DNA of 43,938 bases from a virus (IMGVR_UViG_3300010373_000070:1-43938); one strand, 5' to 3'. Shown: positions 9,724-43,063, counted from the stretch's first letter. The notes: generated by a model from the letters alone, not told the origin. Translations and numbers: made by a program.

Positions 9724-9734
9724 CTTATAGCGAA
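9724..9734 (-). promoter_or_regulatory. Phage promoter motif TTCGCTATAAG
   Basis: An exact copy just downstream of the sigma-factor stop codon, with 9 nt between the motif and the ATG of the co-chaperonin-like gene. There is no Shine-Dalgarno sequence in those 9 nt, so the mRNA would be almost leaderless. It would start a transcript covering co-chaperonin, SbcD, terminase and head genes. Confidence 0.75.
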
Positions 9735-9738
9735 TCTG

Positions 9739-10746
9739 TTAGAGGCTGAGACCGCGGAGCTTGAGGATCTTTTGCTCCAGGGGAGAGAGTTGAGCGACAG
9801 CCTGCGCGAGTGCCCCCATGCTGTCCATCTCCTCGCATATCACATCTGGCTGCGTTTCACGCGGTGCCTCGAAGCGGTCCTCGATGCGTACCTGATCCTC
9901 GCCTTCCGTGATATTTATTTCGATCGATACACACGACTGAGCTGCAAGGAGGCCGGCTAGCTCTGGTGCTGAAGTGCGGCCAGCTTTTTCGACACCGATG
10001 TTCACACGCTTCGCCAACTCTTCGATCGGCAGCTCTGCATTGCGACCGAGGATTTTGTTGGCTCGGTAGATCTTGCGCTTGTCAACCGGGTAGAAGTGAA
10101 TTTTCGTCTCTGAGTACTCTTCGATGAAGTTACCTGTCATGCGCTGGATCGCGACTGACGGAAACGCTCCTGCATCTGCCGAGGGAACGTACTTGTCCAC
10201 CGCATTCATCAGGCCCTCACAAGCGATGTCAACCAAGTCCATGTAGTCGAGATGAGAGCGAGGCGTGCGACTGAAGAAGATGCGGGCACGACTGATAGCA
10301 AGCGGCAGGTTCATCGTCACCAGCTCATGACGGAGGGTAACGATCTGCTGTGCGATCTTGACGACCTTTGAATTCGGCTTCCACGGATACGAGCCCAATA
10401 CGAATTGGACAAACGTGAAGTTGAAACGAAACTTCTGCAAGCGCTCGACGTCACCGTTCTTCAACGCCTTCGAGATCGAGCGGGTGAAGATGCGCTGGCG
10501 TTCACGGAAGAAGGGACGTGCAGCAAGGATATTGTGCTTGCTGACGTTGATGTAGCGAATGAACGCTTTGTACATCTTGTCGCCGAGAGAATGGTTCTTC
10601 AACGTCTCTCGGAATTCATCTTCGAGGGCGATGAGTGACTTGATCTGTTGCTGCTGACGCTTGTTGAAGTCCTCGGTGTCGCCGTAGCGTTCGATGGCCT
10701 TCTCTAGCGAGACAGCGAATTGACGGAAATGCGTATCGTCGGACAT
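9739..10746 (-). CDS. Sigma-70-family RNA polymerase sigma factor lacking most of region 4
   Basis: A protein of 335 residues. The core matches sigma region 2: LVTMNLPLAISRARIFF, then DYMDLVDIACEGLMNAVDKY (region 2.2, core-binding) and FPSVAIQRMTGNFIEEY (regions 2.3-2.4, -10 melting and recognition). A region 3-like stretch follows (YPVDKRKIYRANKILG, then LPIEELAKRVNIG). The chain ends at LSPLEQKILKLRGLSL, where region 4.1 begins, so the -35-reading helix-turn-helix is absent. The stop is followed directly by the next promoter, so this is not an obvious frameshift. The ATG at 10746 overlaps the helicase stop (TAATG). I infer that it directs the polymerase to the TYCGCTATAAG motif. Confidence 0.75.
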   Translation of the reverse strand: MSDDTHFRQFAVSLEKAIERYGDTEDFNKRQQQQIKSLIALEDEFRETLKNHSLGDKMYKAFIRYINVSKHNILAARPFFRERQRIFTRSISKALKNGDVERLQKFRFNFTFVQFVLGSYPWKPNSKVVKIAQQIVTLRHELVTMNLPLAISRARIFFSRTPRSHLDYMDLVDIACEGLMNAVDKYVPSADAGAFPSVAIQRMTGNFIEEYSETKIHFYPVDKRKIYRANKILGRNAELPIEELAKRVNIGVEKAGRTSAPELAGLLAAQSCVSIEINITEGEDQVRIEDRFEAPRETQPDVICEEMDSMGALAQAVAQLSPLEQKILKLRGLSL

Positions 10747-12269
10747 TATAGGTCTATCTCTTCTACCGGGCCATACAGCTCGTTGTAGAAGTTCTTTCGT
10801 AGGAGGCTGTGACGGTGAACCACGTCCACATTCACCACGTCGAAGTCGACGTAGATGCAATCAGTCTTTTGAACACCGGTCCATGGGTTAACAACAAAGC
10901 CTTGGCCACCGCCGCGTGTAGCACGACCAACAGCTTGCTTGGTCTTGATCTCGGATGACTTTCCTTGCAGGTATATGATCGCCTCGACAGCTTGCAGATC
11001 TGTTCCAGTGGCGATGCAGGACGTGCCCACGAGGATCGGAATATTGCCGAGGTTGAATTCGTCGACTAGGTCAGATGGATCATCATCGTGGTATTCAGCA
11101 GGCACAAGCTTCTTGCGCTTTGCATCGAGCGGTCCGTGTGCAAATCGAGCCTCGTGCTTGAGGTACGGCAGGAGCGCGGTGAATTGCTCCAGCTCCTCCA
11201 CCAAGATCACAGTCGGACGCTTCATCTTCTCGACGAAACGATTGGCCAGATCTGCGGCGTGCTTGACGACCTTCTGGTTGTAGTACAAGTGCTGGCGAGT
11301 GAGCTTACCAGGATCCAGGGAGCGTGATGCTTCCGCCGAATGGACGTTGACGACCTTGAAATACGGACGTGAGAGATATCCCTGATCGATACCCTCACGC
11401 ACCGTCATCGCGTAGACAGTCTTGCCAGTGATGCCGTTGAGGACGAGATCTAGTCCGTCGTTACGTACCTGCGTCGCGGAAAAGAAAAAGCGGTAGGGTG
11501 CACGCTTGCAGAGACCGAGACATACCTTCGCCAACGTCTCCGAGGGAACGAGGTGCGATTCGTCCGCAATGAATACCTTCGCCGAGGAGAGATTCTTCCA
11601 GTGCTCGGTACCTTCTTCAACACGCGTGAGGGAGTCGTCGATGGCGATCGTGAAGAGCTTGTCTGACTCCTTCTTGCCGTCACCGTACTTGCCGACGTAG
11701 CGCTTACCGAAATGCTCGTAGAAATCCTTGTAGAGCTGGTTGCAGATATTCGCCGAGGGACACATGACGACGGTCTTGAGTGCAACTGACTTGCAGAGCA
11801 TTCGGATGATCGTCGACTTACCCAGCCCCGTACCGATCTCTACACGACATGGACCATCCTTCGCTGCTGCGAGGAGGGCATCGTGTGCATCGTTCTGGTA
11901 GTAACGGGCTGCGTGCTTCGGCTTGAGGAAGTAGGGGATCGCTCCGGTAGGAGGCAAGCCGTAGTCGATTTGAATTGAATCGTTGAATTGTTGCGAGAGG
12001 GACTCAGCTAGACCGGAATAGGTATACAACCCATCCTGATCTTCGAAGAGAACAGACTTGATACGCTCACCCTTCAGCTCTTCCAGCTTGGCTGCGTAGT
12101 CCTCTTCTTTGTCGGTATACCAGTGGGCTTGTTGCTTCAGACGTTTGATATCGTATTCGACCTTCTTGTCGGTATACTTGAGGACGGAGCGAAGTCGACG
12201 TTCTACGATCGAGTCTTGCTTGTAGCTGTCCGAGAGGCGAACGATTGTTGGTTCGGTGATTGTTAGCAT
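10746..12269 (-). CDS. SF2 DNA helicase, UvsW-like
   Basis: A 507-residue superfamily 2 helicase. Motif I is EIGTGLGKST (about 145-154), motif II is ADESH near residue 236, motif III is FFSAT, and motif VI is KQAVGRATRGGG near residue 450. T4 UvsW, its nearest functional analogue, unwinds branched DNA and R-loops and helps switch from origin-dependent to recombination-dependent replication. The N-terminal 120 residues have no recognised domain. It forms TAATG overlaps with the genes on both sides, so kinase, helicase and sigma would be translated together. Confidence 0.8.
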   Translation of the reverse strand: MLTITEPTIVRLSDSYKQDSIVERRLRSVLKYTDKKVEYDIKRLKQQAHWYTDKEEDYAAKLEELKGERIKSVLFEDQDGLYTYSGLAESLSQQFNDSIQIDYGLPPTGAIPYFLKPKHAARYYQNDAHDALLAAAKDGPCRVEIGTGLGKSTIIRMLCKSVALKTVVMCPSANICNQLYKDFYEHFGKRYVGKYGDGKKESDKLFTIAIDDSLTRVEEGTEHWKNLSSAKVFIADESHLVPSETLAKVCLGLCKRAPYRFFFSATQVRNDGLDLVLNGITGKTVYAMTVREGIDQGYLSRPYFKVVNVHSAEASRSLDPGKLTRQHLYYNQKVVKHAADLANRFVEKMKRPTVILVEELEQFTALLPYLKHEARFAHGPLDAKRKKLVPAEYHDDDPSDLVDEFNLGNIPILVGTSCIATGTDLQAVEAIIYLQGKSSEIKTKQAVGRATRGGGQGFVVNPWTGVQKTDCIYVDFDVVNVDVVHRHSLLRKNFYNELYGPVEEIDL

Positions 12270-12850
12270 TAAAAGCGACGAAGCATGATCGCTGACGTCA
12301 CTTGTCCTAGGCGGGCCTTAGGGTCTCCGTGAAGTGGAACGATGCTCTTCCATGCGGCAGGAGCGATCTCACTCAAGATCTTGGGAATCGATTCGTCAAT
12401 CTTGATGGACTGCTGTTGGTCGTGAATACGGTTTGCGTCGACGGTGCTACCTTCGATTACGGGAGGAGCGTAGAAGATCAGATCTGCTCCAAACGTAGCT
12501 TTCTCGACGAGCTTCTGAGTGATTGCTGTTTCACGCATATCGTTGCTCATGTAGAGGAGCGAATTGAGTGGACTAGAATCACATACGATGATGGTTTGCT
12601 TGTCGCACACCTGAGAGAACATATGCTCGATCGAGATCTGCTGTTGCATGATGCGGAGCTGATCTTCATCGTCGAGCGTGAGTGCTTCTTCTGGGAGGAG
12701 CGATAGCTGGAATCGCTTGTGAGCAATGTACTGACGTGCTTGCTCAGCGACGAATTCACATGCGATGCCGATCTCTTTCAGTGTAGCGAATGTCATGGCT
12801 GCGGTTGTGGTCTTTCCACTGCAAGGACATCCGATAAAACCAATTCTCAT
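12269..12850 (-). CDS. P-loop NTPase, NadR/AAA_28-like nucleoside or nucleotide kinase
   Basis: About 193 residues. The Walker A motif GCPCSGKTT is at residues 7-15 and a later DSSPLNSLLYM (about 97-107) resembles the Walker B/substrate region of NadR-type and deoxynucleoside-type kinases. The substrate cannot be told from the sequence. The frame is open to 12919, but I chose the ATG at 12850: it puts the P-loop where it belongs and lies 6 nt after a perfect promoter motif, which would otherwise fall inside the coding region. It is the first gene of the minus-strand arm. Confidence 0.65.
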   Translation of the reverse strand: MRIGFIGCPCSGKTTTAAMTFATLKEIGIACEFVAEQARQYIAHKRFQLSLLPEEALTLDDEDQLRIMQQQISIEHMFSQVCDKQTIIVCDSSPLNSLLYMSNDMRETAITQKLVEKATFGADLIFYAPPVIEGSTVDANRIHDQQQSIKIDESIPKILSEIAPAAWKSIVPLHGDPKARLGQVTSAIMLRRF

Positions 12851-12856
12851 AGTTGT

Positions 12857-12867
12857 CTTATAGCGAA
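12857..12867 (-). promoter_or_regulatory. Phage promoter motif TTCGCTATAAG, left arm
   Basis: An exact copy, 6 nt before the ATG of the kinase-like gene, so transcription would start at or next to the start codon. It faces away from the copy at 12885-12895, with 17 bp between the two, making a divergent pair at the junction of the arms. Confidence 0.75.
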
Positions 12868-12884
12868 TCTCTTGTAAGGCCCGA

Positions 12885-12895
12885 TCCGCTATAAG
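12885..12895 (+). promoter_or_regulatory. Phage promoter motif TCCGCTATAAG, right-facing
   Basis: The plus-strand member of the divergent pair. No long gene follows at once. Seven nt downstream an ATG opens a six-codon frame (MGIWSN, stop TAG), then about 375 nt of non-coding sequence leads to the next promoter copy and the first right-arm gene. Confidence 0.65.
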
Positions 12896-13278
12896 TGCAG
12901 AGATGGGAATATGGTCCAATTAGATCGATTTGATGGTTGCGGATCGGAGCGTCAGCTCCGCAACTAAGAAGAAAACCTAAAGGTAGTAATCCTAGGTAGA
13001 CTGTTTACTATAAACCTCTCTTCTAAGATCTTAGTTAATAGTTAACTAGTAAGGTGCCTAAGGGAGACTTTTCAGCAAAGTTGCCCGTCGACTATTGGTT
13101 AATTCAATGATAAACGTCGATCGACTCCAGTAGGACTTCTGATCAAAAGTCACGCGGCGCACACTACATTGACGTCTTGATCGCTCCTTCCTTAGTCAGC
13201 TTACAAAAATCGAAACTTTTATTCGTTGGAAAGTGGTGTACCAACAATTCCAAACGGCAGACGACCTCCTCAAAAAGT
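12896..13278 (+). other. Non-coding control region between the arms
   Basis: About 380 bases without a convincing gene, more AT-rich than the surroundings. It holds a stable hairpin (12936-12964), the palindrome CCTAGG (12991-12996), an inverted repeat GTTTA/TAAAC (13003-13015), the perfect 12-bp palindrome CTAAGATCTTAG (13023-13034), a tandem TAGTTAA repeat (13032-13045), and two CGTCGA-containing sites (13086 and 13115). A GTG start at 13233 in frame with the next gene is possible but would place a promoter motif inside the coding region. The density of short palindromes suits operators or a replication origin; neither is proved. Confidence 0.45.
12936..12964. repeat. Inverted repeat, hairpin-forming
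   Basis: GTTGC and GGAGC, a GTCA loop, then GCTCC and GCAAC form a ten-pair stem with a five-base bulge (GGATC). An alternative pairing is GTTGCGGA with TCCGCAAC. No T-run follows on either strand, so it is not a standard terminator. It could be an RNA element in the right-facing leader or a DNA site in the control region. Confidence 0.5.
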
Positions 13279-13289
13279 TCCGCTATAAG
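13279..13289 (+). promoter_or_regulatory. Phage promoter motif TCCGCTATAAG
   Basis: An exact copy, 6 nt before an ATG at 13296 and without a Shine-Dalgarno sequence. It would drive the DNA-binding protein, chaperonin and SbcC operon, and it argues that the coding region begins at 13296 rather than at the GTG at 13233. Confidence 0.7.
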
Positions 13290-13295
13290 GGTTCC

Positions 13296-13718
13296 ATGAA
13301 GGAAGAAATTCTTAACATCGCCCCTGAGTCAGTTCAGGCGATCGGCGAAGAGAAGCAGAAGGCGACCAAGCGTGGTCGCCCGGCTGGTCAGTTTGACTAT
13401 CACAAGCTCCTCGTCCTCCAGTACCTCCAGAACCACACCAAGACTCACGGCATTCCATTCGAAGGCACCAACGAAGATCTCGCTGAGGCAATCGGCGAGT
13501 GGGGTGAACATTTCCGTGTCGGTGTGTCAGCTCGACAGATCGCTCGCTATTTGCGAAAGCTTCAGGAAGAGACTGCTCCCGATGGGAAGTCTCGTATCGA
13601 AGTAGCCTTGCACCGCTTCAAGGGTGCGAACGGAACGTTCGGCAGTCGTCGAGTTATCCACGTGAACGATCTGCGAGACTTCAAGGTCTCGCACCTCGAC
13701 GGTCAAGCTCAGTCGTAA
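13296..13718 (+). CDS. Putative winged-helix DNA-binding protein
   Basis: A protein of 140 residues with the chosen start. After a basic AT-hook-like patch (TKRGRPAG) comes a helical domain: DYHKLLVLQYLQNHTKTHG, then TNEDLAEAIGE and VSARQIARYLRKLQEE, whose spacing resembles a winged helix with a recognition helix at about residues 84-100. It is likely a transcription regulator or replication accessory. It is the first gene of the right arm beside the control region, which suits a regulator. The frame is open to a GTG at 13233, adding 21 residues. It overlaps the chaperonin start by TAATG. Confidence 0.55.
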   Translation: MKEEILNIAPESVQAIGEEKQKATKRGRPAGQFDYHKLLVLQYLQNHTKTHGIPFEGTNEDLAEAIGEWGEHFRVGVSARQIARYLRKLQEETAPDGKSRIEVALHRFKGANGTFGSRRVIHVNDLRDFKVSHLDGQAQS

Positions 13719-15535
13719 TGGAATACCAGAAAGTCAAGTCAGCACCGAAGGTGATCACCGTCAAGGGTGACGCTCTTCGCAAGCGCATCCTCGGCACCAT
13801 GAACACGGTCAGCTCGATCGTCGGTGGTACTCTCGGTCCGAGCGGCAATCCTGCTCTAATCGAGCGTTTCGAACACGGTCTGCCTCCTCTCATCACGAAG
13901 GACGGTGTCACGGTCATGCGCTCTCTCGGCATGTCCGATCCGACGGACCACTGCATCATGGAAGCTGCACGCGATGCAGCTACCAAGACTGCAAACGAAG
14001 CTGGTGACGGTACGACCACAGCGACGATCCTCGCTGAGGCTTTCGTTCGTCACATCGACGAATTCTGTCGCAAGCATCGCACGATGTCTCCTCAGAAGGT
14101 CGTTCGTACCCTCGAACGAGCATTCAATCGAGTCATCGAGCCCGCTATCCGTGAGCTGTCAATTGACGCTTCGGAAGATCGCAAGCTCCAGACTGCTGTT
14201 GCCAAGATCTCCGCGAACAACGAGGTAGAGCTGGCTGAGAAGGTCATGGAGTGCTTTGAGCTTGTCGGCGACGATGGTAACGTGACGATCCTCGAACGTT
14301 CGGGCCCAACGGGCTACGAAGTCGAGCGTCTCGAAGGCTATCCCATTACCATGGGCTACGAGCAATCGTGCGCGAAGTACTACAGCGCATTCATCAACGA
14401 TGCGTCGACGCAGAAGGTGATCATGGAACGTCCGGTGTTCCTGCTCTACCACGGTGTCATCAACGACATCCAGCCTGTGTTGCCGATCTTGCAGAAAGTC
14501 GGCGACGAGCTTGAGAAGAAGCTCCAGGGCCAGCACACCGACTACGACCACTACAACGTCGTTGTCGTCGCGACCGGCTTCTCTCCTCGCGTGCTCGCAT
14601 CATTTGCTCACGCATCGACTCAGGCCAACTCGATCCGCATCTACCCGCTCGTCGTTCCTCTCACGGCAGCGACGAACGGTCAGGCTCAATTCCTCGACGA
14701 CCTTGCAGCCGTCACTGGCGCGATCGTATTCGATCCTGCTACGCACCCTGCCGATCGTGGCGAGCTTGTGGACCTCGGTCCCGGCGTCGTCTCGTTCGAG
14801 TCGTCTCGTTACCGCTCGATGATCATCGGTCGTGCGACGGGCATCATGGACCCGAACCACGCCGACGCAAACGACTATGAGACGTACGAAGATCGTCTCA
14901 TGAATCGTGTCAGCGAAGTCGAAGCCCTGCTCTCGAATCCAGAGAGTGATTGGGACAAGATCTACCTCCAGGAGCGCGTCGGTAAGCTGACGGGCGGCAT
15001 CGCCAAGCTCCATGTCGTCGGTTCGTCGAACGGCGAGCTGAAGGAAAAGCGCGATCGTGCTGAGGACGCCGTATGTGCCGTCCGCGGTGCAATCAAGCAC
15101 GGATGTCTGCCCGGTGGTGGATGGACGTTGCTCAAGCTCTGCTCGCTGCTATCGGATGAAGATCCGGTCGTGCGTCAGGTTCTCAAGCCGGCCCTCATGG
15201 TCCCGGTCGATCGTCTGCTCCGCAATTGCGGCTTCAATGACGTCGACATTCGTCAGATCCTAGAGCCTGTGCTCGAAGGCATCCGCGATGGCAAGACCGT
15301 CGTCTACGATGCATACGAACACCGTCACGGTGATCCCATCGAGCTAGGCGTCCTTGACTCGACGCCAGCCGTCCTGGAAGCAATCCGCAACTCGATCTCG
15401 ATCGCCTCGCAGCTTGGCACTCTCGGCGGCACCGTCGTGTTCCGTCGCGACGAGACCTTCGAGCGCAGCGAAGCTCACAACGCTCAAGAGTTTGAGCGCA
15501 ACGCAAATATCAACGAAGCAAACCTACGTGCATAA
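13718..15535 (+). CDS. GroEL-like chaperonin (group I type)
   Basis: A 605-residue chaperonin, about 55 residues longer than E. coli GroEL. Nucleotide-site motifs are present: GTLGPSGNP near residue 40, TKDGVTV, GDGTTTATILAEAF with the catalytic Asp, AEDAVCAVRGAI with a second conserved Asp, LPGGGWTLLK, and GVLDSTPAVLEAI near the C-terminus. The GGM tail of GroEL is missing. The apical part (about residues 190-400) is divergent, which may reflect phage substrates. Phage chaperonins are known in some giant phages and fold virion proteins. A possible partner lies at 9388-9714. It starts at a TAATG overlap with no Shine-Dalgarno sequence. Confidence 0.88.
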   Translation: MEYQKVKSAPKVITVKGDALRKRILGTMNTVSSIVGGTLGPSGNPALIERFEHGLPPLITKDGVTVMRSLGMSDPTDHCIMEAARDAATKTANEAGDGTTTATILAEAFVRHIDEFCRKHRTMSPQKVVRTLERAFNRVIEPAIRELSIDASEDRKLQTAVAKISANNEVELAEKVMECFELVGDDGNVTILERSGPTGYEVERLEGYPITMGYEQSCAKYYSAFINDASTQKVIMERPVFLLYHGVINDIQPVLPILQKVGDELEKKLQGQHTDYDHYNVVVVATGFSPRVLASFAHASTQANSIRIYPLVVPLTAATNGQAQFLDDLAAVTGAIVFDPATHPADRGELVDLGPGVVSFESSRYRSMIIGRATGIMDPNHADANDYETYEDRLMNRVSEVEALLSNPESDWDKIYLQERVGKLTGGIAKLHVVGSSNGELKEKRDRAEDAVCAVRGAIKHGCLPGGGWTLLKLCSLLSDEDPVVRQVLKPALMVPVDRLLRNCGFNDVDIRQILEPVLEGIRDGKTVVYDAYEHRHGDPIELGVLDSTPAVLEAIRNSISIASQLGTLGGTVVFRRDETFERSEAHNAQEFERNANINEANLRA

Positions 15536-19105: not shown

Positions 19106-19116
19106 TCCGCTATAAG
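19106..19116 (+). promoter_or_regulatory. Phage promoter motif TCCGCTATAAG
   Basis: An exact copy just after the TAG of the preceding gene. The leader to the ATG is 22 nt and contains AGGAG at 19129-19133, so this transcript would use a normal ribosome-binding site, unlike most others. Confidence 0.75.
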
Positions 19117-19138
19117 AGAGCTGTCTACAGGAGTTATC

Positions 19139-19483
19139 ATGGGAAGACCAAAGGGTTCAAAGAACAAGGAAGCGAAGAGCCCCTTCGCAGATCTTGATAG
19201 TGATTGGAAGGACGCAGTAGCGGGCCTTGACCGCACCGAAATCGAGTCACGCATCGCAGCCGTGGCCATCGCCGATTCAGACCTTCGCAAGATGAAGAAG
19301 GAAGATCAGCATCTCAAGGAATGCGCAGAGACCTACAAGGAAGCCGGCGCGCAGTATCGCGATGGTTTCAAGGCTAACAAGCTCAAGATCGAATTCTTGA
19401 AGCAAGCTCTGAATGACAAGGGTGGTCCGTCAAAGGACGTCGCAGATCAAGTCGACGTCGATGCAGACACCAGCGTCAACTAA
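19139..19483 (+). CDS. Small helical protein with AT-hook-like N-terminus
   Basis: 114 residues. The N-terminus MGRPKGSKNK contains the GRPKG AT-hook-like core that often binds the DNA minor groove; the HNH protein at 22668 begins in a very similar way. The remainder is strongly charged and helical (about residues 20-95). AGGAG lies 5 nt before the ATG, and the preferred start is supported by it; the frame is open further upstream to 18974 but that part overlaps the previous gene. A strong terminator follows directly, so it is a single-gene transcript. Confidence 0.6.
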   Translation: MGRPKGSKNKEAKSPFADLDSDWKDAVAGLDRTEIESRIAAVAIADSDLRKMKKEDQHLKECAETYKEAGAQYRDGFKANKLKIEFLKQALNDKGGPSKDVADQVDVDADTSVN

Positions 19484-22648: not shown

Positions 22649-22659
22649 TTCGCTATAAG
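22649..22659 (+). promoter_or_regulatory. Phage promoter motif TTCGCTATAAG
   Basis: An exact copy in the short gap after the reductase gene, 8 nt before the ATG of the next gene, with no ribosome-binding site between. Confidence 0.75.
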
Positions 22660-22667
22660 TACTTTGT

Positions 22668-23078
22668 ATGGCGCGAACAAAAGGCAGTAAGAACAAGGTA
22701 AAGCGCGAATGGAGCTGTCCAGACTGCAAGGAAACAGATCTGGAGAAGAAGTCCACGAGCTATTACTGTCGTTCGTGCGCTTGTGAAAGAGTCAAAATCA
22801 GCAGGCGAGCTGTAAAGAACGAGGTTCTTTCTCAATACTCTGGTGGCGGTTATCCGCACTGCCAGTGCTGTTGGGATCAGCATATCGATTTTCTATCCAT
22901 CGACCATGTAAATGGCGGCGGATCAGAACATCGACGCCAGCTAGGAATGAGTGGCGGGCACTCGTTTTATTCTTGGTTGAAGCGCAATGGATACCCGGAT
23001 GGGTACAGAGTCCTTTGCCACAATTGCAACCAAGGCCGTCAATGTAATAACGGCATTTGTCCGCACGAGGAAGAATAA
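22668..23078 (+). CDS. HNH-like endonuclease with zinc fingers
   Basis: 136 residues. The N-terminus ARTKGSKNK is AT-hook-like and is followed by a zinc finger (CPDC ... CRSC). The nuclease part has CQCC near 65, FLSIDHVNGGG near 75-85, and YRVLCHNCNQGR with a final CPHEE, the pattern of a common phage HNH family. It is the first gene after a promoter motif and overlaps the next gene by TAATG, so unlike the other HNH genes it would head an operon. Confidence 0.75.
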   Translation: MARTKGSKNKVKREWSCPDCKETDLEKKSTSYYCRSCACERVKISRRAVKNEVLSQYSGGGYPHCQCCWDQHIDFLSIDHVNGGGSEHRRQLGMSGGHSFYSWLKRNGYPDGYRVLCHNCNQGRQCNNGICPHEEE

Positions 23079-26035: not shown

Positions 26036-26256
26036 TGACCCCGGAAGAAATGAAGCATATGATTGAGACCGATCCTGATTACATCGCCAGCAAGCGATAC
26101 GGGTATTCTCTCAACACGCTCCTGGAGCGCTACCCTGATGGGTGCCCGGATCGCATTATAGCGAATGTTCTTCAGATGAGCGAAGAGGAAGTGGAGACCG
26201 CCTACCAAGGGATCGTCCGCAAGCTCCGCTCATTGATGAAGGTCGATTCGCTATAA
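26035..26256 (+). CDS. Small helix-turn-helix protein resembling sigma region 4
   Basis: 73 residues from the ATG at 26035, which overlaps the preceding stop (TAATG). The second half, DRIIANVLQMSEEEVETAYQ followed by IVRKLRSLMK, has the spacing of a sigma-factor region 4 helix-turn-helix (IA..L..S...V......RKLR). Residues 1-35 are helical. Because the phage sigma factor at 9739 lacks this region, I suggest this protein could act as a separate region-4 or flap-binding partner, like T4 gp33. That is inference; it may simply be a small DNA-binding regulator. The next promoter motif overlaps its last codons. Confidence 0.4.
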   Translation: MTPEEMKHMIETDPDYIASKRYGYSLNTLLERYPDGCPDRIIANVLQMSEEEVETAYQGIVRKLRSLMKVDSL

Positions 26257-26257
26257 G
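26247..26257 (+). promoter_or_regulatory. Phage promoter motif TTCGCTATAAG
   Basis: An exact copy that overlaps the end of the preceding gene. The leader to the ATG at 26283 is 25 nt and carries a strong AGGAGG Shine-Dalgarno sequence at 26271-26276. Confidence 0.75.
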
Positions 26258-26282
26258 GGCTACGAGACCCAGGAGGAGCCCA

Positions 26283-27098: not shown

Positions 27099-27109
27099 TT
27101 CGCTATAAG
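27099..27109 (+). promoter_or_regulatory. Phage promoter motif TTCGCTATAAG, polymerase
   Basis: An exact copy, 10 nt before the ATG of the polymerase gene. The sequence AGAGCTGT follows the motif here and at 19106. No Shine-Dalgarno sequence is visible. Confidence 0.78.
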
Positions 27110-27119
27110 AGAGCTGTTA

Positions 27120-30100
27120 ATGGCTCTCAAGAACTTCGCCACCTGTCACTGCCATCCGCAGTCTCTCGACTCAGCGTCAACTCCCGAAGCCTTCGCCAAG
27201 CGTGAAGTAGAACTAGGGACTGGCGTCATCACCGTGACTGATCACGGTTCGCTGGCAGCTTGCCGCACCGTCTACGATCTGGCAAAGAAGCACAAGCTGA
27301 TCCCGGTTCTCGGTCTGGAAGGCTACTTCCGTGACGACGATTGCGGCATCTTGCGCGACGCTGGCATTCCTAAGAATGCCGACGGGAAGTACCTCGACTA
27401 CTTCAAGTACGCTCACTTCTGCACGCACTTCATGGATCAGGCCGCATATGAATGCGGTGTCCGTCTGATCTCGAAGGCTCCGATTGAACGCCACGGTCAA
27501 GAGACCAAGCCGCTGTTCAATTGGCAGAATCTCGAAGAGCTTGCATCACACAACGTCACGATGACGACGGGATGCCTCATCGGCATGGTCCAACGTCACT
27601 TGCTCGATAACAACGACCCGCAAATGGCCGTGAAGTATTTCGAGCGTCTCGTTTCTATCTTCGGAAAAGATCGTCTCTTCGTCGAAGTGTTCCCTCACAT
27701 CTGCGACCGTAACTGGGTCAAGGGAATCTTCGTCGAGCTGCAAGAAGGCGACAAGATCGTCAAGCTCAAGTTCCACGACGGTAAGAAGCTCAAGACCAAC
27801 GAAGGCGAAATCATCGCCGACGATCTAGCGAAGGCTTGGCTGCGCAAGGCAAACAAGCACGACACGCTCTGCGCTGTGAAGGACTACAACACGTGGAACG
27901 ATCGCAACCCGACCAAGATCCTCTCGGTCAAGAAAGTTGAAGACTTCCTCGTGAACGAGTGCCGTCCGTGGGCTCCCGACGGCGACGTGCAGAAGGGCTG
28001 CAATGAATTCGTCATGCGCCTCGCTGCCAAGTACAAGGTACCGATCCTCATCGCCGACGACTCTCACTTCGCTCATGCGGATGAGAAGCCGGTGCAGGAC
28101 GTTCGCCTCATGGCTTCGGGCGGCTCATGGAGATTCTACGGTTCGTACCATCGTCAGTCGTCTGAAGAGGCATTCGCCTACTTCAAGAACAAGCTCGGCG
28201 TCGAGCAGAAGCAATTCGAAGAATGGGTCGACAACAGCTACGCATGGGCTGAGCGATTCAAGGGTTTCAAGTTCGAAACGAAGCCGTCACTGCCGACCAA
28301 GTTCTTCCCGCAAGACACCCTTCGTCACACTCTCGACCTTATCAAGAAGCATGGTCGTATGGATTGGAAGGACAAGCGAGCTGTCGCGCGTCTGGAGGAA
28401 GAGATCAACCTCCTCCACAAGAACGGCACGATCGACTTGCTGCCTTACTTCTTCATCGATGAAGAAGTTTGCTGGGAATACACCAAGGCTGGTCTACTCA
28501 CTGGTCCTGGTCGTGGTTCTGCTGCCGGTGTTCGTCTAGCTTACCTGCTGGGCATCACACACGCAGATCCGTTCGATTATGGTCTGTCGCTCGAACGATT
28601 CATCACTCAAGATCGTATTGCCTCGGGCGCGCTTCCTGATATCGACCAAGACTTGCCGAACCGCGAGCTGCTCGTCGCCGACAAGGTTGGCTACCTGCAC
28701 AAGCGCTATGGCGATCACTTCGCTCAGATCTCTGTCGACACGACGCTGAAGCTCAAGTCGGCCATGAAGGACGTTTGCCGCGTTCTCGCCGGCCAAGTGT
28801 TGCCTGAGATCGATGCGATTACTCGTCGCCTGCCAGATCCGCCGCAGGGTGTGTCCGACCACAACTTCGTGTTCGGCTACACCGACTCAGGTAACTGGCA
28901 TCCAGGCATCATTGAATTCAACAAGGACTTGCAGGACTACATCACGAAGTATCCCAAGCACTGGGATGTCGTTCGTCGTGCTCTTGGTCTCGCACGTCAG
29001 AAGTCACGTCACGCTTGCGGCTTCGTCATCGCCAATCGTCCGATCTGGGAATTCATTCCTACGACGGTCATCAGCGACACGATCTGCACGGCGTACACGC
29101 CGGCCAGCGTCGAAGCTGTCGGTGGCGTCAAGATGGACTTCCTCGTCATCAACTCGCTGAACGACATCAGCAACGCGATCAAGCTCATTCAGAATCGCTA
29201 CGGCACTCCTCCTGAGGAGGGCATGAAGCTCGATGGCAAGTGGGTGCCTCAGTGCCGCCTCATCAAGCATGGTGAGAATTTCCAGGACATCTGGAAGCTG
29301 CCCGAGGACCAGAAGGTGTTCAAAGATGTCTCGCTCGGCAAGACTGAGACGGTATTCCAATTCAACACTCCGGGCGCAGTGCAGTGGCTTCGTCAATTCG
29401 CATTCCGCAAGGGTGGTGATCGCTTCGCTATCGATTCAATCGAAGCGATGGCAGCCTTCACCGCTCTCGATCGTCCCGGTCCGCTCGACATGGAAGTTGA
29501 GTCAGGTGAAGGCGGCAAGAAGCACAACCTGCTAGTCGAGTACGCTCGTCGCGCTCGCAATGCTGAGCCGTCGCCAGAGATCTTCACCTTCTTCAATCAG
29601 CTCTTCCCAGAGACGTACGGCGTCATGGTGTATCAGGAGCAGTTGCAGAAGGCGTATCAGTACCTCACTGACTGCGGCGGTCCTGAAGCAGAAGAGTTTC
29701 GTCGCAACGTCGCCAAGAAGAAGATGGAGAAGGTGCTCGCAGCCTACCCAGCATTCAAAGAGCGCGCATCAGCGAAGCTCGGTGGTGAGGAATATGCCGA
29801 TAAGTGCTGGGAATTCTTCAAGACTTGGGGTCAATACGGCTTCAATAAATCACATGCTGTGTGTTATTCGATTATCGCGTACGCATGTGCCTATCTAAAG
29901 CACCACTATCCACTCGAATGGTGGACGGCTGTTCTTCGCAACGCCGACAAAGACGAGATCAACAGCGTGTTCTGGCGTCACTGCGGACACCTGATCAACC
30001 TGCCTGACGTTACGAAGTCGCACGACATGTTCGACATCGTAGACGACAAGATCCAGGCACCGCTCTCTCTTTTGCACGGCATCGGCGAGAAGGCTCACAA

Positions 30101-30975: not shown

Positions 30976-31713
30976 ATGGATCTAGAAACAATTCTCAAGA
31001 ATCTCGACGACGCAGAACGTATGGCTGCGATCGATCCGAACGAGCCGCAGTACACCAAGACGCGCGCTGGTATCGAGACTGCAATCAAGGGCGCGAAGGA
31101 TCGCGTTCAGAAGCTCAAGGGCGATTACGCAACTACCGTTCAAGCAAACGGAGTAGCAATCTTCCTCCACGGCCCGGAAGGTAAGGTCCAGGAATTCACG
31201 ACTCTCGTGAGGGATCTGGGCGAGGCAGTTGTCATCGACGCTGCTGAGCTGTACACGCAGCGCTTCCTGCCGGTCCTCGAAGGTTCTCTCGGCCCTAAGC
31301 GCGAGTGGAATTCGACTCAGGCGGCGATCATGCATCGCCTTCTCGCAGAGGTAGGCAAGGAACTAAAGGTGTTCATGACGCGCGCTATGCGCCTCCCGGC
31401 AACGATGACGTTGCCCGAGAAGTCAGACACCCTCAACTTCATCCGTAACACGATCCGCGAAGAGCTGGGCGATGACTTCAATGCTCAGTACCTCCGCAAC
31501 GCTGTTGCTCGTGAAGGGCTAAAGATTCGCTATATGGGTGCTGTAGCTCCGGTGATCGTAGTGAATGCAACCCCGGAAGAGGCAATCGGCCTCGGCCAAC
31601 TCTTTGGTCGTGGTAAGGCGACCGTAACGATCACAGACGAAGACACTGTCAACGAGGAATTCATCAAGGCAACATTCAAGTCAGTACAAAAGCAAATCAA
31701 GAACAAGAAGTAA
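30976..31713 (+). CDS. Hypothetical protein downstream of the polymerase
   Basis: 245 residues from the ATG at 30976, which follows an AAGGA site. It begins with a coiled-coil-like helix (residues 1-45) and later has a mixed domain (about 150-240) with VAPVIVVNATPEEAIGLGQL. No family is recognised. Its place between the DNA polymerase and the SSB-like protein suggests a replication accessory, perhaps a clamp-loader or SSB partner, but no ATP-binding motif is seen. Confidence 0.5.
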   Translation: MDLETILKNLDDAERMAAIDPNEPQYTKTRAGIETAIKGAKDRVQKLKGDYATTVQANGVAIFLHGPEGKVQEFTTLVRDLGEAVVIDAAELYTQRFLPVLEGSLGPKREWNSTQAAIMHRLLAEVGKELKVFMTRAMRLPATMTLPEKSDTLNFIRNTIREELGDDFNAQYLRNAVAREGLKIRYMGAVAPVIVVNATPEEAIGLGQLFGRGKATVTITDEDTVNEEFIKATFKSVQKQIKNKK

Positions 31714-33479: not shown

Positions 33480-33490
33480 TCCGCTATAAG
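33480..33490 (+). promoter_or_regulatory. Phage promoter motif TCCGCTATAAG, recombinase
   Basis: An exact copy two bases after a TAG stop, 9 nt before the ATG of the recombinase gene. No ribosome-binding site lies between. Confidence 0.78.
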
Positions 33491-33499
33491 GCAACTGTA

Positions 33500-34624
33500 A
33501 TGGCAAAAGACTGGCTCTCACGACTCCAGAAGTACGACAACGTTATCAAGGAACACACGAATCCTTTCAACAGCGGCGTTCATTCATCCTCTCCCTCAGC
33601 AGACTTCGTATACGGCAACGGTACGTGGCTTCTGCCGTTTGGTTATTCAGAAGTTCTCTACGGTCCTCCGAAGGGAGGCAAGTCGGTTTTCGTCAAGATG
33701 AAGATCGGCCAGCTTCATCAGGACGATCCTGAAGCATACGCCGTCGTATTCGACACCGAATTCCGTTGGCGCGGTCAGCTCACTCCTGAGAAGGCCAAGG
33801 CATATGGTATCGATATGAAGCGCGTTGTTATCTACGAAGGTAACAACCCGATGGAGATCTTCGATCGCATCGAAAAGAATCTCGCTGCCGACCTCGACGA
33901 TGGCATGCCGCTCAAGTACGTCGTAATCGATTCAGTGTCGGGCGTTCTCGGCCGTCGTGAATTGGATTCAGACACCGTAGAGACGCAGCAAATCGGCGAC
34001 CACGCTCTGACCATTCAGACTGGTCTCAAGCGTATTTTGCCGACACTACGCAAGTACAAGCTCGCTTGTACCCTCGTCACGCAGGTTCGTTCGGAAATGG
34101 ATCAGGCAGCTCTCCGTCGCGATCCGTCGATGAAGGTGAAGATGAATGCTTCGTTCGGTCTCCAGCACTTCGCCGAATACTTCGTGTATGTCGTACCGAA
34201 CCTGAACAAAGAAGGTCGTACGGATATGCTCGGTCGTGAAATGGTCGATGAGTCTGTCACTGACTTGATGGACAAGGGCGAGCGTACGGGCCATAAGATG
34301 CGCGTCATCATGAAGGACTCGTCAATGGGTCCAAAGGGCCGCACTGGCGAATTCACGTTCGACTACAAGCTCGGCGTGATCAACGTCCATGAAGAAGTGT
34401 TCCGTCTTGGTATCGGTCGCGGTGTCATTGAGACACCGTCTAAGGGCTGGTACGAATTCGGTGGCAAGAAGTGGCACGGTGCGAAGGATATGCTTGTTGC
34501 TCTCGAAGGTGACAAGGATATGCAGGCAGCGATCATCAAGGAATTGAAGCTACGCGATATGCGTGGCGACTACCGCGCTGCTGACGCCAAGCTCGATACC
34601 TCAGATATCGAAGCAGTCGAGTAA
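33500..34624 (+). CDS. RecA/UvsX-like recombinase
   Basis: 374 residues, the usual size for RecA and UvsX. Walker A is YGPPKGGKSVF near residue 54 and Walker B LKYVVIDSVSG near 135. A QIGDHALTIQTGLKRILPTL helix and TLVTQVRSEMD (like the RecA motif with the catalytic Gln) follow. It would form filaments on single-stranded DNA for strand exchange and recombination-driven replication. Its neighbours are the SSB-like protein and the primase. The promoter 9 nt upstream and the TAATG link to primase suggest joint expression. Confidence 0.82.
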   Translation: MAKDWLSRLQKYDNVIKEHTNPFNSGVHSSSPSADFVYGNGTWLLPFGYSEVLYGPPKGGKSVFVKMKIGQLHQDDPEAYAVVFDTEFRWRGQLTPEKAKAYGIDMKRVVIYEGNNPMEIFDRIEKNLAADLDDGMPLKYVVIDSVSGVLGRRELDSDTVETQQIGDHALTIQTGLKRILPTLRKYKLACTLVTQVRSEMDQAALRRDPSMKVKMNASFGLQHFAEYFVYVVPNLNKEGRTDMLGREMVDESVTDLMDKGERTGHKMRVIMKDSSMGPKGRTGEFTFDYKLGVINVHEEVFRLGIGRGVIETPSKGWYEFGGKKWHGAKDMLVALEGDKDMQAAIIKELKLRDMRGDYRAADAKLDTSDIEAVE

Positions 34625-35634: not shown

Positions 35635-36675
35635 GTCGGCCGGGCCCGAGCCGCCGCAAATGTCGCAACCTTCCTGGTGCAGACGCAACTGCTTCGCCGC
35701 TTCACGGCGCGCGTCCGAATGCAGCAGGATGTTCTGCTTCGCAAACTTCAGCGTCGAGACCATGCCGTCATGATCCATCGCAGCGAGCCCTTCACGGAGC
35801 AGCTTCGCCGCCGAGCGCTTGCGAGCCGTCGGATTCGACGTATCGAGCTTGCGATTGCGGTCGCGATAGTCGTCGTCGACGGGCTGCTCGTCGATCGGGT
35901 TGCTGTAGTCCTTGAACCCGTGGATGTACGCGACATCCTGCTCGACGATCGGCGCAGCTTCACCATCGGCGTTGAAGTTCGCACGACCGCGATACGCCTT
36001 GCCGAGCAACGCCACGGCGACGGTGTCGGCGTCGGGCATCGTCGAGCGCTCCTTCGCCGACAGGATCTTGAAGATCTCGGCGAAGCGCTGGCGCAGCCAC
36101 ACGTAGAGCGTCTGCTCGTTGTGCTGGTCGTCCTTCTCCTCGTCCTCGATCTGGGCGCAGAAGATGTTGAGCAGCACCATCGCGTACGTGCGGAGATCTT
36201 CCACCGACTTGCCCCAGCGACGGCAGGGCGAGTTGTTCAGGTTGTAGAAGTTCCAGCAAGCCTTGTGCATGACCTTGTCGTACTTGGCGTACTTTTCGGC
36301 CGGCGCATTCGGCGAGCGACGGAACGCGGTGTGCCGCACGCACACGAGGAAGTCGTCGTCGGTGTAGCAGAGCTTCTGCTCGGGCTGCACGCCGCGATCG
36401 ACGGGCACCGGGTTGCCGTAGCCCGCAGCGCTGGTGATGACGTGGTACGCCGCGAAAGCCACGTCGAGCTTCTTGCCGGTGATGTCGGTGGCCAGAACGT
36501 CGATGACGTTCGGAGCGGGCTTGGTCTGGTCGCGACGTTCGCAGACACGGACCTCGATGTCACCCAGGCGTCCCTGGACGCTGAAATCGCAGCCGGCGAC
36601 GGTCGACTTGGTAAAGGGAACCTTGTTTGCCCGGAGCCAGGAACGGATGAGGTTGCGAGCAGTGAACGTATTCAT
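35575..36675 (-). CDS. Hypothetical protein, inverted in the replication region
   Basis: 366 residues from the ATG at 36675, which has a strong TAAGGAGG ribosome-binding site 6 nt upstream (36682-36689). No family is recognised. The N-terminus is basic (TFTARNLIRSWLRANKV); the C-terminal 60 residues have a CDICGGSG zinc-knuckle-like motif and an acidic end. It is the only gene on the minus strand in the right arm, is clearly richer in GC than its neighbours and overlaps the primase gene by 60 nt at their 3' ends. These features suggest later acquisition. It may have its own control, given the variant promoter at 36763. A DNA- or RNA-binding role is a guess. Confidence 0.6.
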   Translation of the reverse strand: MNTFTARNLIRSWLRANKVPFTKSTVAGCDFSVQGRLGDIEVRVCERRDQTKPAPNVIDVLATDITGKKLDVAFAAYHVITSAAGYGNPVPVDRGVQPEQKLCYTDDDFLVCVRHTAFRRSPNAPAEKYAKYDKVMHKACWNFYNLNNSPCRRWGKSVEDLRTYAMVLLNIFCAQIEDEEKDDQHNEQTLYVWLRQRFAEIFKILSAKERSTMPDADTVAVALLGKAYRGRANFNADGEAAPIVEQDVAYIHGFKDYSNPIDEQPVDDDYRDRNRKLDTSNPTARKRSAAKLLREGLAAMDHDGMVSTLKFAKQNILLHSDARREAAKQLRLHQEGCDICGGSGPADSGEVDVDEEAGLESASAEE

Positions 36676-36813: not shown

Positions 36814-36824
36814 TTCGCTATATG
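36814..36824 (+). promoter_or_regulatory. Variant promoter motif TTCGCTATATG
   Basis: One base off the consensus. It lies 8 nt before the ATG of a 53-codon frame and upstream of the helicase gene, and points away from the variant at 36763, repeating the divergent pair layout of 12857/12885. Confidence 0.5.
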
Positions 36825-36832
36825 AGCATTGT

Positions 36833-36994
36833 ATGACCTCCATGTGGGTTGACGTGAGCGAGCCCGGTAAGACTTACCCGGAGATCCTGGCTGACACTTT
36901 GGCGAGGAAGCTTACGCACGTGACAAGTATGGTTTACCTCAGCTACCTGGGGCTGTCAAGACGCGGTAGAAGAAAATTCTGCACGTACATGTAG
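36833..36994 (+). CDS. Small ORF of 53 residues after a promoter motif
   Basis: A frame of 53 codons ending in TAG. It begins MTSMWVDVSEPGKTYPEILA and later has a basic stretch (SRRGRRKF). The start is supported only by the promoter-like motif 8 nt upstream, the spacing typical in this genome, with no Shine-Dalgarno sequence. There is no homology that I recognise. It fills most of the gap between the inverted gene and the helicase; otherwise this gap of about 380 bases would be empty. Confidence 0.4.
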   Translation: MTSMWVDVSEPGKTYPEILADTLARKLTHVTSMVYLSYLGLSRRGRRKFCTYM

Positions 36995-37053: not shown

Positions 37054-38526
37054 TTGTCCGATCCTCTCATTGAACCAGCAAAAATTTCTCTCCCCTTCGC
37101 GACCAACAAGCAGATCGCCATCCTTGGCCATCTATTGAAAAACGATAAGTTTTTCGCTCAATGTGCAGACCGCATCGATCCGGCGTGGTTCCTGGACCCG
37201 TACTGCACGAAGGTCTATGGGGCGAAGGTGAAGTTCTTCCGTGACTTCAATCGCTCACCGTCGATAGAGGAGCTGCGCAATCTGCCGGTGTTCCTCACCG
37301 AGGACCAAGCGACACGGAACAAGGTCAACGAGATCATTCGTCTCTCGGAACTTCAGGCGAAGGAATACGGGCTCGACGCTCTACGCCCCGAGCTGACCGA
37401 CTGGATGCATGCTCAGTATTTCGAGATTGGGTTCAGAAAGGCATATCAGCTCTATAAGGGTAAGGATACCAAGGTTGCTTATTCCACCGTCGACCAGATG
37501 GTGCAGGATATCAAAACAACTCAATTCGAACAGGATTCAGAAGAATCGTTTACGAATTACATGGAGGAGATGGAGCAATCGCGTGTCGAGTACTCGAACG
37601 CATTGACCGTCGGCCTCGGCGTATTCGATCGCCTACTCACACCGAAGGCACAGCACGGCTCGCTTCTGCCGGGCGACTTGTCGATCATCCTCGCGCCCAC
37701 CAATACAGGCAAGACGACGGCGATGATTACGACGATCATTCAGAACATCGTCAACCAGAAGCACGTCCTCTTCATCACGCACGAAGGTCGACCGACGGAC
37801 ATCAAGGAAAAGCTTCGCTGCTGCTTCCTCGGCGTCACGGCCACCGAGCTGCTGGACATGTACAAGACGGCTGAAGGCCGCACTCGCCTCGATCACTGCA
37901 CTAAATGGATGGCTCGTTATCTCTGCTACGTTCCGATGAACAAGGCCGGTCTCACCGTCGAGGAAGTCGCAGCTACCGTTCGACGCAAACAAGAAGAGCG
38001 CTGCGCGAAGTTTGGTCGTGGCTTCGATATGCTCGTCGACGATTATCCGGCGAAGATCAGCACGCAGCAAGCTGCGAAGGGAATGTCGAAGCGTGAGCGT
38101 GACGAGATCGTGTACAACTACTTCGAGCAGATCGGCTTGCAGTACAAGATGCACGTGCTCTGTGCGATTCAGACAAACCGTGAAGGCTCGAAGGTGAACA
38201 AGGGCCAGCGTGAAGATCGTCTACTGACGATGGAAGACGTGCAGGAGTCGTGGGGCCCAATGACGTGCGCTACGAACGTCTGGACGATCAACCGCTCGCC
38301 GCATGACAAAGCGTTCAATCGCCTCATCTACTATATCGACAAGTCACGCTCCTCAGAGACCGGATTTGCCGTCGTCTGCAAGACGAATTTCGCTTGCTCA
38401 CGTACTCACGGCGACGATATGGGAGCAACGTTCTATCGATCGGCCTCCACTTACGCCGACAAGCTCGACCAGTACCTCGATCAGTACGTAGGGAATGAGC
38501 TGCCAGAACACCTACTTCTGGGCTGA
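37054..38526 (+). CDS. Replicative DNA helicase, DnaB-like
   Basis: 490 residues. The N-terminal domain (about 15-130) resembles the DnaB N-terminal helical domain; the RecA-like ATPase has Walker A LAPTNTGKTTAM near residue 211, HEGR after it, FDMLVDDYPAK as Walker B near 330 and a QTNREGSK motif near 375. It unwinds the fork and is expected to work with the primase at 34624 and the polymerase at 27120. The chosen start is a TTG at 37054 with GAGG about 8 nt upstream. A nine-codon frame (37021-37050) precedes it and might be a leader peptide. It ends just before a promoter motif. Confidence 0.82.
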   Translation: MSDPLIEPAKISLPFATNKQIAILGHLLKNDKFFAQCADRIDPAWFLDPYCTKVYGAKVKFFRDFNRSPSIEELRNLPVFLTEDQATRNKVNEIIRLSELQAKEYGLDALRPELTDWMHAQYFEIGFRKAYQLYKGKDTKVAYSTVDQMVQDIKTTQFEQDSEESFTNYMEEMEQSRVEYSNALTVGLGVFDRLLTPKAQHGSLLPGDLSIILAPTNTGKTTAMITTIIQNIVNQKHVLFITHEGRPTDIKEKLRCCFLGVTATELLDMYKTAEGRTRLDHCTKWMARYLCYVPMNKAGLTVEEVAATVRRKQEERCAKFGRGFDMLVDDYPAKISTQQAAKGMSKRERDEIVYNYFEQIGLQYKMHVLCAIQTNREGSKVNKGQREDRLLTMEDVQESWGPMTCATNVWTINRSPHDKAFNRLIYYIDKSRSSETGFAVVCKTNFACSRTHGDDMGATFYRSASTYADKLDQYLDQYVGNELPEHLLLG

Positions 38527-38537
38527 TTCGCTATAAG
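38527..38537 (+). promoter_or_regulatory. Phage promoter motif TTCGCTATAAG
   Basis: An exact copy beginning directly after the helicase stop codon, 8 nt before the ATG of the protease gene. A second ATG in another frame lies at 38542 and is not used by a long frame. Confidence 0.75.
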
Positions 38538-38545
38538 GGTGATGA

Positions 38546-39109
38546 ATGAATGTATCGGTAGACGAGAAGAATCGCCGCCTCTATGTCACAGGAGACGTAG
38601 ATGATCCGATGATGCACATGATGATGGTAGCTCTTCGCAAGCTCGAAGAGACCGAAGGTGACATCACGATCGTTTTCAGCTCTGAGGGCGGGGAAGAGGC
38701 TCCGGGCTACGCGATATATGACTTGCTCACCATGTGCAAGAACATGGTAATCATCGAAGTATACGGGAAGGCTTGGTCGATCGCAGCGGCTATCATGCAG
38801 GCTGCGGACGTTCGTCGCATGGCTCCTAATGCGACCTTTATGATTCACAACGGGACAATCCCCGTCGGTGAAGAAGCACAGCAAAACCTCATCCTCGATA
38901 TGGCTGACCAGATCAAGCGGGACAATCAACGTTACCACACGATCCTGGCTGCACGTTCGAAGCTCTCGTATAACGCGATTGAAGAGGCTTGTGAGAAAGA
39001 TAGTTACTACACGGCTGAAGAAGCACTGACAGCCGGATTCTGCGACGAAATCTTGGTCCCGCAGAAGGTCTACGTCAAACCCAAGAAGGGAAAGAAAAAG
39101 AAGCAATGA
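38546..39109 (+). CDS. ClpP-like serine protease
   Basis: 187 residues, the size of ClpP. The catalytic triad is visible: Ser in GKAWSIAAAIMQAA near residue 77, His in NATFMIHNG near 99 and Asp in EKDSYYTAEEALTAGF near 150. The C-terminus is strongly basic (KPKKGKKKKQ), unlike ClpP. Phage ClpP relatives often serve as head-maturation proteases, but this gene lies far from the head genes in the left arm, so degradation of host or regulatory proteins is equally possible. There is no ATPase partner gene nearby. Confidence 0.75.
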   Translation: MNVSVDEKNRRLYVTGDVDDPMMHMMMVALRKLEETEGDITIVFSSEGGEEAPGYAIYDLLTMCKNMVIIEVYGKAWSIAAAIMQAADVRRMAPNATFMIHNGTIPVGEEAQQNLILDMADQIKRDNQRYHTILAARSKLSYNAIEEACEKDSYYTAEEALTAGFCDEILVPQKVYVKPKKGKKKKQ

Positions 39110-41724: not shown

Positions 41725-41725
41725 G

Positions 41726-42277: not shown

Positions 42278-42279
42278 CT

Positions 42280-42290
42280 TCCGCTATAAG
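42280..42290 (+). promoter_or_regulatory. Phage promoter motif TCCGCTATAAG
   Basis: An exact copy. The leader to the first start (42318) is 27 nt, the longest seen, and shows no clear Shine-Dalgarno sequence. Confidence 0.7.
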
Positions 42291-42317
42291 AGACACGTAG
42301 CCCGGATCCTCCTCGGG

Positions 42318-42401
42318 ATGACGTACGGCAACTCTGTGCTTTTGGATCAGAGAACCATGCTTCAGATCGAGATCGGGTGGCGTCTCCTGGAGTCAGCATG
42401 A
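42318..42401 (+). CDS. Very small ORF, 27 residues
   Basis: The product would read MTYGNSVLLDQRTM and continue to a TGA that overlaps the next start (ATGA), the coupling seen elsewhere in the window. It lies between a promoter motif and a supported gene, so it could be a leader peptide that carries ribosomes to the next start. It may also be untranslated leader. Confidence 0.35.
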   Translation: MTYGNSVLLDQRTMLQIEIGWRLLESA

Positions 42402-42613: not shown

Positions 42614-42620
42614 GTGTCCA

Positions 42621-42827: not shown

Positions 42828-42828
42828 T

Positions 42829-42839
42829 TTCGCTATAAG
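42829..42839 (+). promoter_or_regulatory. Phage promoter motif TTCGCTATAAG
   Basis: An exact copy, beginning 1 nt after a TAG stop and 8 nt before the ATG of the next gene. Confidence 0.75.
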
Positions 42840-42847
42840 AGAGGCGA

Positions 42848-43063
42848 ATGGCTAAGAAGAAAAAGCCTGAGCCGATCGTTTGTACGAGCTGTCCCGAAGA
42901 CGAAGTCAACGAGACGGTTGAAGGCGAAACCGAAGGTTGGTTGCAAACCGAATACGGGATGATGTGTCCCGAATGCCGCTTTGTTCGCGGCATGGATCCC
43001 GTCGGCGATTCAAGCGTCGGCATCGATCCATTGGTTGCAATCGCAGAAGCAGAGAAGAAGTAA
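42848..43063 (+). CDS. Small Cys-rich protein
   Basis: 71 residues with CTSC near residue 12 and CPEC near 40, a probable zinc ribbon split by an acidic loop (EVNETVEGETEG). It begins with a basic KKKKP patch. It starts at a leaderless-type promoter and overlaps the RNA ligase by TAATG, so the two are made together. Confidence 0.5.
   Translation: MAKKKKPEPIVCTSCPEDEVNETVEGETEGWLQTEYGMMCPECRFVRGMDPVGDSSVGIDPLVAIAEAEKK

Follow-up and report, generated by a model that had tools for sequence, protein, structure and literature searches.

Leaderless translation in bacteria has been studied mainly in Actinobacteria, in relatives of Thermus and on a few single genes such as lambda cI; leaderless mRNAs tolerate kasugamycin better than others do. 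In phage T4, late promoters consist of a -10 element only and are served by the phage sigma factor gp55, which lacks a -35-reading domain; the late mRNAs of T4 carry ordinary leaders. The present analysis concerns a linear virus record of 43.9 kb (IMGVR_UViG_3300010373_000070:1-43938; hereafter the window, meaning the whole of this stretch) and a recurrent box within it, TYCGCTATAAG, which very probably is a promoter that would yield leaderless messages (leaders of 0-4 nucleotides, nt) at many operon heads and Shine-Dalgarno (SD)-led messages where the leader reaches at least 14 nt. For the Thermus phage phiYS40, most middle and late transcripts have been described as leaderless (PMC3594737), and for a second Thermus phage, P23-45, the middle and late promoters have been placed in the extended -10 class and suffer less from a block of the -35 contact (PMC7403470). 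In Actinobacteria and Deinococcus-Thermus, a -10-like signal about 12 bp before the start codon marks the leaderless "TA-led" genes (PMC3160421).

The original prediction considered widespread leaderless expression of replication genes unusual for a phage, which holds only in part, since leaderless middle and late mRNAs have been published for phiYS40 (PMC3594737). The hosts of phiYS40 and P23-45, however, use many leaderless genes themselves, whereas the relatives of the window include a Myxococcus phage. Compared with the Thermus phage promoters, the box carries CGC instead of TG upstream and its hexamer ends in G instead of T, and, unlike in those phages, short leaders alternate with SD-led ones from gene to gene. 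The TA-led genes have TANNNT, like the -10 element of the host sigma factor, while the box has TATNNG and a long fixed upstream part, occurs in phages and varies among related ones. With the T4 late system the window shares the -10-only promoter and a phage sigma factor devoid of a -35-reading domain; in contrast to T4, no co-activators resembling gp33 or the gp45 clamp were seen among the proteins scanned, in scans not systematically aimed at them.

Anatomy of the box

The 9-mer CGCTATAAG occurs in 13 exact copies in the window, against a mean of 0.09 expected (100 dinucleotide shuffles, maximum 1). All copies previously listed exist, their coordinates beginning two bases upstream, at TYCGCTATAAG; exact copies at 52-60(-), 12887(+) and 42282(+) and a variant at 31526 had been overlooked. 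The sites, with the two upstream bases included, are:

52-62, minus strand: box; predicted +1 at 45, ATG at 31, leader 14, GAGGG; the gene extends past the window edge
9724-9734, minus strand: box; predicted +1 at 9717, ATG at 9714, leader 3
12857-12867, minus strand: box TTCGCTATAAG; predicted +1 at 12850, the A of the ATG, leader 0; heads the kinase-helicase-sigma operon; ortholog in contig G001 also with leader 0
12885-12895, plus strand: box; predicted +1 at 12902, no open reading frame (ORF) near; faces the divergent intergenic region
13279-13289, plus strand: box; predicted +1 at 13296, the A of the ATG, leader 0; heads an operon of a helix-turn-helix-like gene and GroEL; leader 0 also in G001
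19106-19116, plus strand: box; predicted +1 at 19123, ATG at 19139, leader 16, AGGAG
22649-22659, plus strand: box; predicted +1 at 22666, ATG at 22668, leader 2; HNH-endonuclease-like gene
26247-26257, plus strand: box; predicted +1 at 26264, ATG at 26283, leader 19, AGGAGGAG
27099-27109, plus strand: box; predicted +1 at 27116, ATG at 27120, leader 4; DNA polymerase III alpha
31526-31536, plus strand: variant box TTCGCTATATG, within the 3' part of ORF 30976-31713
33480-33490, plus strand: box; predicted +1 at 33497, ATG at 33500, leader 3; RecA/UvsX-like recombinase
36814-36824, plus strand: variant box TTCGCTATATG; predicted +1 at 36831, ATG at 36833, leader 2; ORF of 53 codons, with a DnaB-like ORF 221 nt beyond
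38527-38537, plus strand: box; predicted +1 at 38544, ATG at 38546, leader 2; ClpP-like protease
42280-42290, plus strand: box; predicted +1 at 42297; next likely gene at 42398 (long leader)
42829-42839, plus strand: box; predicted +1 at 42846, ATG at 42848, leader 2; 71-amino-acid gene

At 12857-12895 two boxes lie back to back, separated by about 20 bp, and a third follows at 13279, the group being divergent around a non-coding region of 400 bp; the transcript predicted from 12885(+) holds no evident ORF.

Relatives were gathered via the sigma factor encoded in the window. A search of IMG/VR with an alignment of this protein gave 57 loci, including additional relatives of 155-182 kb outside the set analysed here, and the family set comprises the window and nine sigma-sharing contigs (G001 and G003-G010, of which G008 and G009 were used as single loci); the best-sampled relative is G004, with 169 kb. 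The layout of the box, CGC-TATAAG, is that of a promoter with a -10 element only. Its conserved parts are GAT/AGT-like bases, TTCGC and the hexamer TATAAG (TATNNG in G004), and no -35 signal appears in the 14 window or 52 G004 sites aligned on the box. Relative to the predicted +1, the hexamer lies at -12 to -7, as in the leaderless class, whose -10 element is found about 12 bp from the start codon, and CGC occupies -15 to -13 at all window sites. The TG at -15/-14 of the extended -10 class (host sigma70/sigmaA) is absent from the window, which has only the G at -14; likewise, the last hexamer position (-7) is G instead of T at 15 of 15 window sites, T being common only in G006 and G007. A pyrimidine-purine step is found exactly 7 nt past the hexamer at 14 of the 15 window sites, compared with 0-8 at other shifts. 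The step is also present at the seventh base at 60 of the 95 family sites whose ATG is not at +1 (9-24 at other shifts) and at 28 of the 41 family sites with long leaders (3-12 at other shifts), and it therefore tracks the box and not the start codon. Such a fixed step has the appearance of a transcription start, one that could be located independently of the ATG; RNA polymerase would start at this single position, on a purine that follows a pyrimidine.

Leader length and Shine-Dalgarno sequences

Only 6-10 nt had been claimed to separate motif and start codon at most sites, and this was borne out, the gap being 6 nt at 12857(-) and 13281, 8 nt at 22651, 38529, 42831 and the variant at 36816, 9 nt at 9724(-) and 33482, and 10 nt at 27101; the wider gaps at 19108 (22 nt, AGGAG) and 26249 (25 nt, AGGAGGAG) were found as described. 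When +1 is placed at the pyrimidine-purine step, the predicted leaders measure 0, 0, 2, 2, 2, 2, 3, 3 and 4 nt, in agreement with the proposal that the transcript would begin within about 4 nt of the ATG. The suggested pairing of leader length with the ribosome-binding site also holds: an SD sequence is present at 0 of 9 short-leader and 3 of 3 long-leader window sites (14, 16 and 19 nt; Fisher p = 0.0045). With the start codon 0-4 nt from the predicted +1 at operon heads, no space is left for a ribosome-binding site and the message would therefore have to be translated leaderless, or with a leader of 0-4 nt; a start codon at least 14 nt downstream would be preceded by a leader with an SD sequence, and genes inside operons would use stop-start overlaps or SD sequences. 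Since the boxes are found at the head of replication, recombination and nucleotide genes as well as of the sigma operon, they most likely serve as middle promoters in a cascade.

The same partition is found among the relatives. In G004, 26 of the 58 boxes have the ATG precisely on the predicted +1, against 0.46 expected, and in the ten genomes pooled, 115 of 137 sites have a start codon, with a leader of 0 at 42 of the 115. SD sequences occur at 5 of 71 sites with leaders of up to 5 nt versus 28 of 41 with leaders of at least 9 nt (p = 9e-12). Orthologs retain their mode in G001 or, in more distant phages, change it together with the SD sequence. The 108-amino-acid gene, the kinase gene and the gene at 13296 have unchanged leaders in G001, orthologs of the gene behind the 9724 box have leaders of 3 nt in G001 and 1-4 nt in G004, G005 and G010, those of DNA polymerase III alpha have 2 nt (G004) and 0 nt (G010) with a GTG start in both, and in all five phages compared the gene at 19139 is preceded by a long leader and an SD sequence. 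A protein family of about 490 amino acids, among others, switches between phages from leaders of 0-5 nt devoid of SD sequences (one SD-like match) to leaders of 9-12 nt, mostly with one. Such orthologs would offer natural matched pairs for the cost and gain of each mode. The version of the hexamer differs by phage (TATAAG, TATNNG, TATAAATA, TAGAA, TACNNR, TATANT) while the anatomy stays constant. In G002, a contig of 55 kb in which the sigma factor is present, the CGCTAT box is not enriched.

The box, its spacing, the initiator, the SD partition and the conservation can be read directly in these genomes. New are the box itself, its conservation throughout the family, the partition into leaderless and SD-led genes, and a cultured relative for testing it; a signal of this kind would sort the messages of a single phage, one gene at a time, into leaderless and SD-led ones.

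Several points weigh against this interpretation. The variant at 36814 perhaps marks no real gene start, because its ATG opens an ORF of only 53 codons, and it is not to be counted as a proven gene, while the exact copies at 12885 and 42280 have no near gene. The absence of SD sequences at short-leader sites is partly forced, as the box sits in the SD position, and their lack is by itself weak evidence, because only 32% of the other window genes have one; the independent half of the link is the presence of SD sequences at 68% of long-leader sites versus 8-11% at random positions. Start codons, transcript 5' ends and expression timing are all predicted from sequence, as are the promoter role, leaderless translation and the identity of the reading factor.

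The CAATCTT box

A second, unrelated box, CAATCTT, is present at two places in the window:

1572-1578, minus strand: CAATCTT, its C 15 nt from the start codon of ORF 1165-1563; leader of 2 predicted
4729-4735, minus strand: CAATCTT, its C 24 nt from the start codon of a 326-amino-acid gene adjoining the portal gene; SD sequence

CAATCTT lies upstream of the portal-adjacent gene of about 325 amino acids in most sigma loci examined, including loci with a sigma identity of 31-36%. It occurs at structural genes and most likely represents the late promoter. Its distances to start codons peak at CAATCTT followed by 6 nt and ATG or GTG (23 sites at offset 13), whereas shuffled-word controls are flat and show no peak. 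SD sequences accompany 2 of 54 short and 30 of 76 long sites (p = 9e-7); the initiator test gives a weaker result than for the first box, 38 of 99 sites against 16-30 at other shifts.

The sigma factor

The protein used to gather the relatives has the following position and regions:

9739-10746, minus strand: phage sigma factor; has regions 2 and 3, stops within region 4.1 and lacks region 4.2

Region 2 is indicated by PHROG 351 (E 8e-18) and by Pfam Sigma70_r2 (E 0.0014, under its cut-off). The protein can be aligned with RpoD over regions 2 to 4.1 and ends there, and all six sigma factors aligned stop near the counterpart of RpoD residue 566 of 617, leaving out region 4.2. A structure model built from an alignment of the window and IMG/VR locus proteins (mean pLDDT 78, pTM 0.61) matches the fold of bacterial sigma factors (E 1e-5), and the modelled chain closes with one short helix past the region 4.1 helix, which would leave no space for region 4.2. 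A sigma factor of this form suits promoters that have no -35 element.

Which factor reads which box

It appears somewhat more likely that the phage sigma factor reads CAATCTT, the late box, and that the host polymerase, perhaps together with a phage helper, reads CGCTATAAG, the middle box. The opposite assignment, in which the phage sigma factor itself reads TYCGCTATAAG in the manner of T4 gp55, would create a self-amplifying sigma regulon and leave the leaderless prediction unchanged. It is a plausible, if rather doubtful, alternative that fits the pairing of a sigma factor lacking its -35-reading part with a box lacking a -35 element, the boxes of G003, which equal TATAAATA, the T4 late consensus, and the fact that, of the six records searched, five hold just one sigma-like gene per phage. 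The assignment is lowered, however, because CAATCTT follows the sigma factor over a wider range: CAATCTT spans the whole range of the protein at the same gene and fits it better, while the first box varies among phages and is unenriched in sigma loci of 31-36% identity, even though the putative DNA-facing region of the protein is almost invariant. Furthermore, the sigma gene sits in an operon that is itself headed by the first box. The joint occurrence of box and sigma factor is no test, since the phages were gathered by their sigma factor.

Three further explanations deny that the box is a promoter of this type. It might be a translation element that recruits ribosomes by a route other than SD pairing and sits at a fixed distance from the start codon, as the tight spacing in G004 would allow; this is very improbable given the 41 sites at which the box lies 9-25 nt farther from the start, with an ordinary SD sequence usually appearing instead, the initiator step that tracks the box rather than the ATG, the two copies with no near gene and the unrelated second box with the same spacing. 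Because boxes occupy gaps of 19-34 nt between co-oriented genes, upstream transcription probably runs through them, which would agree with RNA processing sites at which longer transcripts are cut just ahead of the ATG. Yet boxes also stand at divergent operon heads (12857-, 12885+, 13279+) and resemble a -10 element with a pyrimidine-purine initiator, making processing a highly unlikely origin of the pattern. The loose resemblance of CGCTATAAG to CACTATAG could point to the promoter core of a T7-like single-subunit phage RNA polymerase, an even more remote prospect; the family of such enzymes had no match in phage Mx1 (see below), G004, G006, G007, G010 or the window, in a search whose control gave none either, and the annotation of Mx1, whose genome is complete, names no such polymerase, the window being a fragment. 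A phage multisubunit RNA polymerase was likewise found in none of six records, with a control that matched in all 14 genomes.

A wider scheme can be proposed tentatively, although as a whole it is rather unlikely: a phage family, large and mostly uncultured, would use two promoter classes in succession (CGCTATNNG and CAATCTT), with a sigma factor devoid of the -35 domain reading the later class and with the transcription starts of both classes on the start codons of many genes. If true, middle and late expression would rely on leaderless translation in hosts that are not known to use it, with a possible takeover of the host initiation machinery.

Myxococcus phage Mx1

Among named relatives, the closest is Myxococcus phage Mx1 (OR576727.2; 169.6 kb, complete), whose published description contains no promoter analysis (PMC10720576). 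As Mx1 is available in culture, it opens the prediction to laboratory tests. Mx1 shares with the window the gene neighbourhood of sigma factor, helicase, terminase, portal, GroEL and DNA polymerase (43% identity for the sigma factor, 48% for the DNA polymerase), keeps CGCTATTAG at two divergent operon heads, including that of the counterpart of the gene behind the 13279 box, and has CAATCTT at late genes. Copies of CAATCTT in Mx1 include those at 36550(+), 75276(+) and 121392(+), for which the predicted 5' end is 13 nt past the C of the box. In contrast to the window, it has few CGCTAT boxes, and at several of its leading genes the leader is longer or the upstream sequence differs. The prediction also affects gene starts, at least one of them in Mx1. 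One Mx1 gene, within 168903-169271, is annotated from 169187(-), while an in-frame ATG at 169271 lies directly past CGCTATTAG, and the product read from this ATG has an RPAGQF segment in common with the window product from 13296; the annotated start at 169187 looks wrong and is probably 28 codons too far downstream.

Other upstream sequences were seen in Mx1. A AGATCAACGCAGTA-like motif, AGATCAAC, occurs 20 times, often 23-24 nt before an ATG or just past tRNA genes, and is perhaps another promoter class, for example at:

43723, plus strand of Mx1: AGATCAACGCAGTA-like motif
125841, minus strand of Mx1: AGATCAACGCAGTA-like motif

TTGAC-N17-TAGTAT-like sites with SD sequences ahead of small leftward genes (for example 87831(-) and 90610(-)) look like ordinary -35/-10 early promoters.

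Gene content of the window

Phage genes of the window comprise those for terminase, portal, helicase, sigma factor, GroEL, SbcCD-like proteins, ribonucleotide reductase, a DNA polymerase III alpha type enzyme, a RecA/UvsX-like recombinase, primase, DnaB and a ClpP-like protease. The chaperonin is also annotated in Mx1:

13718-15535, plus strand: GroEL-like chaperonin (PHROG 5725, E 1e-78)

A host assignment from six matches in metagenome bins (Deltaproteobacteria, Saccharibacteria, Saprospiraceae) was dropped as too unreliable. The DnaB-like ORF at 37054-38526(+) has TTG as its sole start, with GAGG upstream, and its true start is uncertain. Finally, a stretch of 78 nt is present in three diverged copies (158-235, 1225-1302 and 7018-7095; 72-76% identity), possibly a shared zinc-finger/HNH coding segment.

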